Of a stretch of DNA of 49,606 nt, positions 48,585-49,590 are shown piece by piece (position 1 is the stretch's first letter; each line of letters begins with the position of its first letter). Under the pieces are notes generated by a model that saw only the letters and a program-made list of their open reading frames with translations, was not told the origin of the DNA and did not search any database. The stretch spans positions 1 through 49,606 of the forward strand of contig JAFGCX010000038.1 in assembly GCA_016932415.1 (NCBI GenBank). The letters run 5' to 3'. The stretch is from Candidatus Krumholzibacteriota bacterium (lineage in GTDB: Bacteria; Krumholzibacteriota; Krumholzibacteriia; Krumholzibacteriales; Krumholzibacteriaceae). A program made the translations under genes and the position numbers.

Positions 48585-48682
48585 GTCTAACGTTGGTTTA
48601 GCCTGCAAAGGCGGTTGACGCGTGCCGAGCGCCTGCACGGGGCGTGACAAGCGACTTTGTCAGGTTCAAACTCTTGTTATGC
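48585..48682 (-). repeat. attC-like site 2
   Basis: Minus strand: GCATAAC (R''), a divergent central palindrome, and GTTAGAC (R'), the last matching GTTRRRY exactly. Length 98 bp. It starts 14 bases after the metallo-beta-lactamase stop and ends 10 bases before the next gene's ATG. Confidence 0.8.
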
Positions 48683-48696
48683 TCTATCCCGCAGCC

Positions 48697-49476
48697 CTAC
48701 GAACCATTACGTTCCAGCAAATCCAGATAGTGGTCAATCAACTCCGGGCCATGAACAGGGGCCCCGTGTCCGGCAACGATAGTTTTTATATCTAATTCAA
48801 GCTCCTTGAGCTTGAGTAAAGTCTTCGGATACTGCTCCAAGTTCGCAAAACTCAAATTACCGAGGCCTTGCTTAAGAATGCAACCACCGTACAGGACTTT
48901 CTCGCTGGGAAAATACACGAATATTCCATCCGGCGTGTGCGAGGGACCTAAGTACAACGCACGCACTTGCCCCTTCTGCAACTCGAAATCACCCTGATAC
49001 GTCTCCGCAGGGAGAACGAGAGGCAAATTCGGATACTCAGGAATCGCCCGGCGAGTCCACTCGACTACAGCCGCCCAGTCGCTTTCAAGTAAGTCATATG
49101 TCATTTGGGTGGAGATGACCTTCGCCCCGATGCTTTCCCAGTAGGCGTTCCCCCCGGTACGATCTGGGTGATAATTGGTATTGACGACTTCCGAAACTGG
49201 GAGATTCGTTACCTTTGCGATTTCTCCTGCAAGCAACTCTGCTGTCGCGGGCGTCCATGTGGCTCCAATGATGGTTACACTCTCGGAGCCAACATAAATG
49301 ATCGAGTTTTCCCGTGCGTAGTATGTGTCCTCGGCGACCCACAATGGGCCGACAAGATGGCTTACAAGCACACGTGGCGATTGCGCTCTTGCAGATGCTT
49401 CTGTCAGAACCAACCCACAACAAATTCCGAACACGACAACCGATGTCGCTTTTATCAACGACGAGTAGAACTGCAC
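48697..49476 (-). CDS. Subclass B2 metallo-beta-lactamase (CphA/Sfh-I-like), cassette gene
   Basis: 259 residues with a signal peptide ([18 protein letters not shown]), so periplasmic. It carries the B2 hallmark Asn in place of the first zinc-binding His: N101-Y-H103-P-D105-R (BBL 116, 118, 120). His180 in GPSHTPDG (196), Cys199 in YGGCILK (221), Lys202 (224), Asn207 (233) and His237 in AGHGAP (263) are all kept. Long stretches match my memory of CphA ([25 protein letters not shown]). B2 enzymes hydrolyse carbapenems with one zinc and hardly act on other beta-lactams. The residue before the Cys is Gly, where CphA has Asn. GTG start behind GGAGGAGG, 16 bases after an attC site. Activity is not shown by sequence alone. 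Confidence 0.93.
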
Positions 49477-49492
49477 TCTTCCTCCTCCCTGA

Positions 49493-49590
49493 GCATAACA
49501 ATCTTCGCTTCAGCCGCGGGCTTCACTGGCGCGGGCCCTGCCCCCGCAGGGGCCGTGGCAGTGAAACCCGTCTTCTGTAAGCAGTTGTCA
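49493..49590 (-). repeat. attC-like site 1
   Basis: Minus strand: TGACAAC (R''), GCTTACAG pairing with CTGAAGC with an extrahelical A, GGGGGCAGGGCCC central part, and GTTATGC (R'). Length 98 bp, the same as site 2. The remaining 16 bases of the window belong to the end of an earlier cassette. Confidence 0.75.

Follow-up and report, generated by a model that had tools for sequence, protein, structure and literature searches.

A gene for a subclass B2 metallo-beta-lactamase is carried as a gene cassette in a row of attC sites at the end of a contig from a draft genome of the Krumholzibacteriota. The cassette is very probably a promoterless unit for a secreted B2 carbapenemase, resident in a chromosomal integron, and was probably captured from another family. 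The stretch of DNA analysed here (the window) is the whole of contig C38 (49,606 bp), which belongs to a draft genome of 3.11 Mb estimated to be 95.5% complete with 0.05% contamination.

The B1 carbapenemases became a clinical problem largely by way of integron cassettes, and the B2 enzymes have so far been reported mainly from fixed chromosomal loci. Since the natural B2 cassette found here has its core sites intact, the subclass is already present in the environment in a mobilisable format; resistome surveys gain a sequence to look out for (with B2 models combined with attC), and the origin of the B2 genes in distant lineages becomes testable. No sign of a spread to pathogens or plasmids emerged. 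Among 72,556 plasmids no B2 gene was present; the matches were below 60% identity and the annotated ones were B1 or other MBL-fold proteins. No B2 gene was found in viral contigs or phages.

The lactamase and its active site

The gene is encoded on the minus strand of the window.

48697-49476 (-): subclass B2 metallo-beta-lactamase gene, 259 aa, GTG start, Gly at position 220

An AGGAGG lies just before the GTG start (the sequence ahead of it is AGGAGGAAGA), and the N-terminus carries a predicted signal peptide, through which the lactamase would be exported. The GC content of the gene is host-like (51%), and that of two other cassette genes is 41-44%. The protein scores 359.8 bits against NF033087, the NCBIfam equivalog for subclass B2 (cut-off 240), and falls below the cut-off of each of the exception-level NCBIfam families (CphA, SFH, PFM, CVI, YEM); it is therefore regarded as a B2 enzyme without a named family. 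The split between B2 and B1 in a tree with B1 outgroups is supported at 100/100, with the window protein on the B2 side. The closest PDB sequences are those of CphA and then Sfh-I, the top match being the N220G mutant of CphA, and the nearest fold to the AlphaFold model (mean pLDDT 79.5) is CphA 1x8i (E 6.5e-31, 60% identity), followed by Sfh-I, with the B1 enzymes far behind.

The product of 48697-49476 is a true subclass B2 metallo-beta-lactamase. The earlier note, made from the sequence, had described a complete B2 active site (Asn-Tyr-His-x-Asp, His, Cys, His), and all the ligands were indeed found: N101 (BBL N116), H103 (H118), D105 (D120), H180 (H196), C199 (C221) and H237 (H263), with the motif N101-Y102-H103-P104-D105 and the further residues K202 (BBL K224) and N207 (BBL N233). 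The search against curated families and the tree placement that it had proposed did not put the protein among the non-lactamase hydrolases. Deep mutagenesis of CphA has shown Gly84, Asn116, Thr197, Asp199, Lys224, Gly232, Asn233 and Gly262, together with the ligands, to be irreplaceable (PMC5018959), and each of these residues is kept in the window protein. The sole deviation is the presence of Gly, which is also the B1 state, in place of Asn at position 220; Asn220, absent here, is conserved in B2 enzymes by description and is not defining for the curated family. Gly220 is shared by a second B2 copy in the host genome (contig C25, see below) and by the Propionivibrio and Desulfobacula proteins, all three of which pass the B2 model. 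A single clade of Gly220 enzymes was not supported, appearing in 7% of the bootstrap trees. The N220G mutant of CphA has an imipenem kcat/Km of 6.70 against 6.91 for the wild type, and a lower imipenem MIC, 0.75 vs 2 ug/ml (PMC5018959).

Carbapenemase activity is predicted for the window protein from its conserved residues and modelled fold, and hydrolysis would proceed with one zinc at Asp120-Cys221-His263, as in CphA and Sfh-I. The spectrum is expected to be narrow, since B2 enzymes are characterised by hydrolysis of carbapenems only and by inhibition through a second zinc. The divergence of the protein (about 60% identity to CphA) and the replacement of Asn by Gly at position 220 might also be expected of a B2-like MBL-fold hydrolase with a native substrate other than a beta-lactam. 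Such a role appears very unlikely, however, as the score is well above the curated B2 equivalog cut-off, all the CphA group-1 residues essential for imipenem resistance are kept, and 2N30, a divergent metagenomic B2 enzyme from Mumbai hospital sewage effluent with 51% identity to the CphA of Aeromonas lacus, hydrolyses imipenem (PMC6598227). Set beside the window protein by description, 2N30 resembles it as a metagenomic B2 enzyme and differs in coming from shotgun data, with no integron context seen reported. The known B2 enzymes (CphA of Aeromonas, Sfh-I of Serratia fonticola, PFM, YEM and CVI) share with the window protein the fold, the NxHxD/H/C/H ligands, Lys224 and Asn233 at about 55-60% identity, whereas the window protein is cassette-carried, has Gly220 and lies below every family cut-off.

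The cassette, its attC sites and the array

The features of the array are as follows, in the order in which they are read on the minus strand.

49493-49590 (-): attC of the preceding cassette (site E), 98 bp; R'' TGACAAC (degenerate), R' GTTATGC
48591-49498 (-): B2 gene cassette in its expected excised form, from G^TTRRRY to G^TTRRRY; 908 bp with a single gene
48585-48682 (-): attC of the lactamase cassette (site D), 98 bp; R'' GCATAAC, R' GTTAGAC, canonical cores; family-f6 type
47957-48574 (-): gene of the next cassette, a secreted protein of 205 aa without family
47850-47950 (-): attC of the secreted-protein cassette (site C); R'' GTCTAAC, degenerate R'; 71.8 bits with covariance model R1, training sequence; fold z -2.2
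47208-47825 (-): carbohydrate-binding (CBM_4_9) cassette gene, 205 aa; PF02018 34.1 bits
47097-47197 (-): attC (site B); R1 88.8 bits, training sequence; weak as a fold alone (z -0.6)
46796-46899 (-): degenerate attC (site A); R1 20.8 bits, E 0.017, outside the training set

The row thus runs from attC E through the lactamase, attC D, the secreted protein, attC C, the CBM_4_9 protein, attC B, a cassette of about 200 bp in which no ORF was found and attC A to the chromosome, and holds five attC in one orientation, four with strong scores and one weak; degenerate cores occur in R'' of site E and R' of site C. Site A, where the fold of 46820-46900 has a z of -3.4, is the probable distal end of the array. 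The cut point within GTTRRRY is known from established IntI biochemistry, which places the front boundary of the lactamase cassette at G^TT, 49499/49498, followed by 22 nt, the gene, 14 nt and attC D. This boundary is provided by the R' of site E (GTTATGC, 49499-49493, one mismatch to GTTRRRY), a site that belongs to the preceding cassette, the gene of which lies beyond the contig end; the other boundary is the R' of site D (GTTAGAC, 48591-48585, exact). A promoter scan found no promoter-like site inside the lactamase cassette, and expression would come from a promoter upstream in the array.

No Rfam match was present within 40-49.6 kb, and the sites were therefore tested by a structural scan and by a covariance model made for the purpose. 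The structural scan searched both strands of the whole window for RYYYAAC...GTTRRRY pairs of which the bottom strand folds as one symmetric hairpin, and recovered the four attC of a VIM-2 class 1 integron as a positive control. It gave three matches in the 49.6-kb window, the best being site E (-32.8 kcal/mol, dinucleotide z -5.95) and site D (-25.3 kcal/mol, z -4.7), with a weak third at 4752 (-16.8); the best of 20 simulated sequences of equal length reached -20.8 and none reached -25. The covariance model R1, built from four attC sites of the window including D, found the degenerate fifth site at 46796-46899. On contig C30 of this genome it also picked up two sites that had played no part in its training (E 1e-12 and 8e-8), and elsewhere in the genome, beyond the arrays of C38 and C30, it gave no match at E <= 1. 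In an alignment of 17 sites, 91.1% of the stem cells are paired against 76.6% after shuffling, and two-sided changes occur at 13 of the 22 stem pairs, a level reached in 0 of 500 shuffles. The sites are attC.

Palindromic, repeated and intergenic elements may also be dispersed repeats of a REP-like or MITE-like kind, yet this is extremely improbable here: RYYYAAC/GTTRRRY cores stand at both ends, there is one site per gene in a single orientation, the sites lie 3' of intI in relatives and their stems co-vary. The two 98-bp palindromes that had been noticed on either side of the ORF thus fall exactly at 48585-48682 and 49493-49590, are the best attC candidates of the window, and fold, score and covary as attC, and three further sites (47850-47950, 47097-47197 and a weak one at about 46796-46899) can be added to them. 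The gene is cassette-borne as had been proposed, with R' on both sides of the ORF, an attC hairpin after the gene and an array of several attC. The cassettes of B1 enzymes (VIM, IMP, GIM, TMB, DIM) are similarly composed of a carbapenemase gene followed by attC within an array, but they encode B1 enzymes and reside on clinical integrons, for the most part of class 1, whereas the window holds a B2 gene in a sedentary chromosomal array; VIM-2 is about 30% identical to the window protein.

A large Cthe_2159-type carbohydrate-binding protein (PF14262) encoded at 44578-46311 (+) adjoins the distal end of the array; it is absent from a same-genus relative, and two genomes of the family have a version with about 45% identity.

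The integrase and the state of the array

A full integron integrase is present in the host genome at C17:95127-96071 (TIGR02249 455 bits, cut-off 265). It is the one intact IntI of the genome and lies on a contig other than C38. Contig C17 ends 238 bp past intI, and no cassettes are found on the 5' side of the gene. An array 5' of intI on C17 was the first guess and was rejected, since the relatives have the 3' arrangement: among genomes with intI and attC on one contig, to which the comparison of orientation is confined, R1 arrays lie 3' of intI on the same strand in G042 (6 sites) and G072 (4 sites), and coordinate comparison gives the same layout in G003, G007, G035, G037, G043, G044 and G070. 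Across the phylum, IntI above the cut-off occurs in 38 of 78 genomes and attC by R1 in 39 of 78. The atypical arrangement of an array 3' of, and co-oriented with, intI recalls the chromosomal integrons of the Treponema type, which differ in belonging to another phylum and in that the intI-array junction of the present genome is unassembled (PMC3607928).

From the arrangement in the relatives, the missing array should begin just past the end of C17, and C38 (reversed) and C30 are candidate pieces of it; the linkage of intI and array is thus what we infer. Contig C38 ends 16 bp past the outer attC, E, so the linkage to attI and intI is unseen and the array piece could be a CALIN, a cluster of attC without an integrase. 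The folded bottom strand of attC would be the substrate of the host IntI, with the cut falling at G/TT in GTTRRRY, and the lactamase gene would be excised as a circle and re-inserted, a reaction proposed from sites that are themselves present.

The cassette may instead be frozen in a CALIN or a decaying distal array, where it would no longer move and would effectively be a fixed chromosomal gene. This is considered rather unlikely, although the only intact IntI is on another contig, array ends occur in at least two places of the genome (C38 and C30), several attC sites are degenerate and the B2 cassette on C25 has no recognisable attC. Against it, attC D and the R' of site E are less degenerate than the rest of the row, attC D is of a foreign type, so that the insertion probably came after the resident attCs, and IntI works in trans.

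The left end of C30 (L046:1-2050) is an array piece with two good attC and cassettes for a 272-aa membrane protein and a 191-aa protein without family.

Origin and distribution of the B2 genes

Comparison of attC types points to a source outside the family of the host. Site D shares 52% identity with its neighbour E, 47% with B and 46% with C, and 84%, 82%, 79%, 76% and 76% with attCs from five genomes that belong to family f6. Its median best identity per genome is 0.70 for f6 vs 0.58 for f1/f2 (p 0.022), and the five other attCs of the host each lean to f1/f2 (three of the five at p < 0.05), in a comparison that uses about 100 bp, few f1/f2 genomes and a site D that is among the R1 training sequences. 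As attC D is f6-like and unlike its neighbours, the lactamase cassette was probably imported, and probably later than the resident attCs; capture from an f6-type integron, that is from another family of the phylum, would be the simplest reading. Archaeal attC are used by IntI1 (PMC9668308), and since integron integrases can recruit the attCs of very distant hosts, a wide taxonomic gap does not by itself prevent capture.

An attC of f6 type in a window that is the end of a contig in a repeat-rich array, together with the loss of synteny with the same-genus genome G024 at about 44.3 kb, could also reflect a misassembled or mis-binned contig or contig end and a cassette from another organism, for example of family f6. 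This is nevertheless quite improbable given the low contamination estimate and the adjoining chromosomal genes, which match the same genus (the gene at 41176-42741 is 85% identical in G024 and the next gene is syntenic). Moreover, the sites that flank the lactamase (E on one side, B and C on the other) and those of C30 are of the own-family type, and the nearest relative of the window B2 gene is the second B2 gene of the same genome.

G000:C25:67134-67934 = L038:11135-11935 (-): second B2 metallo-beta-lactamase gene, NF033087 359 bits

The C25 gene is sister to the window gene in the tree (95/92), with 68% identity over the full length and 75% amino acid identity over the mature part; dN is 0.16 and dS is saturated. 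The upstream DNA of the two is homologous through R' (GTTATAC in C25 vs GTTATGC in the window) and the initial 20-odd bases of the cassette, which suggests that the two genes started out in cassettes of one kind. An intact attC at the C25 copy was rejected by the structural scan, the R1 score and the attC comparison; its attC is decayed, the top R1 score of the 12-kb stretch falling exactly there with just 9.1 bits. The same cassette start and the decayed attC indicate that the B2 lineage has been cassette-borne for long. The neighbours of the C25 gene (serpin, SnoaL-like, alpha/beta hydrolase and DUF1579, with secreted-protein genes in the stretch) share a single strand and may be old cassettes. 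Among these, the secreted serpin near the B2 gene at L038:6669-7934 (-) scores 310 bits with PF00079 and is possibly an old cassette.

The wider distribution of B2 genes is patchy. They occur in one of the 80 genomes of the phylum, that of the host, and in the index genome only among the 399 genomes of the Propionivibrio soli family and the 291 of the order of a Desulfobacula MAG. The earlier note had placed B2 enzymes mainly in Aeromonas and Serratia fonticola, a range that proves too narrow in view of the NCBIfam families PFM, CVI and YEM and of the genes in Propionivibrio, the Desulfobacula MAG and a Bryobacterales MAG. Its link to mobility gains the foreign-type attC and the patchy distribution of B2; excision and transfer themselves are what we infer from the sequences. 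It may also be suggested, tentatively, that an old lineage of Gly220 B2 cassettes is kept up in the integrons of this little-known phylum and passed from one family to another; these cassettes would be a natural mobile source and could have seeded the fixed chromosomal B2 genes elsewhere. A search of the open full text (subscription papers and preprints being outside its scope) yielded B1 cassettes, chromosomal B2 genes and one functional metagenomic B2 (PMC6598227), and no published B2 cassette; a hidden precedent is possible, as according to a review the genetic surroundings of SFH-1 have not been analysed extensively (PMC7855592).

The nearest B2 homologues in named genomes outside Aeromonas and Yersinia are those of Propionivibrio soli, the Desulfobacula MAG and the Bryobacterales MAG, and no cassette context was found at any of the three. 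The Desulfobacula gene (L009:5965-6732) appears frameshifted near its 3' end, probably through a sequencing error, and is preceded by a core-site-like CCCAAC...AATAAC for which no hairpin was found. The Bryobacterales gene (L021:4507-5256) encodes a B2-scoring protein with VPDYHPD in place of NTNYHPD, that is Asp at BBL 116, an unusual B2 variant. The Propionivibrio soli gene (L008) lies between a truncated (5518-5931) and an intact (7973-8758) copy of a related MBL-fold hydrolase, which suggests insertion of the B2 gene by duplication or recombination.
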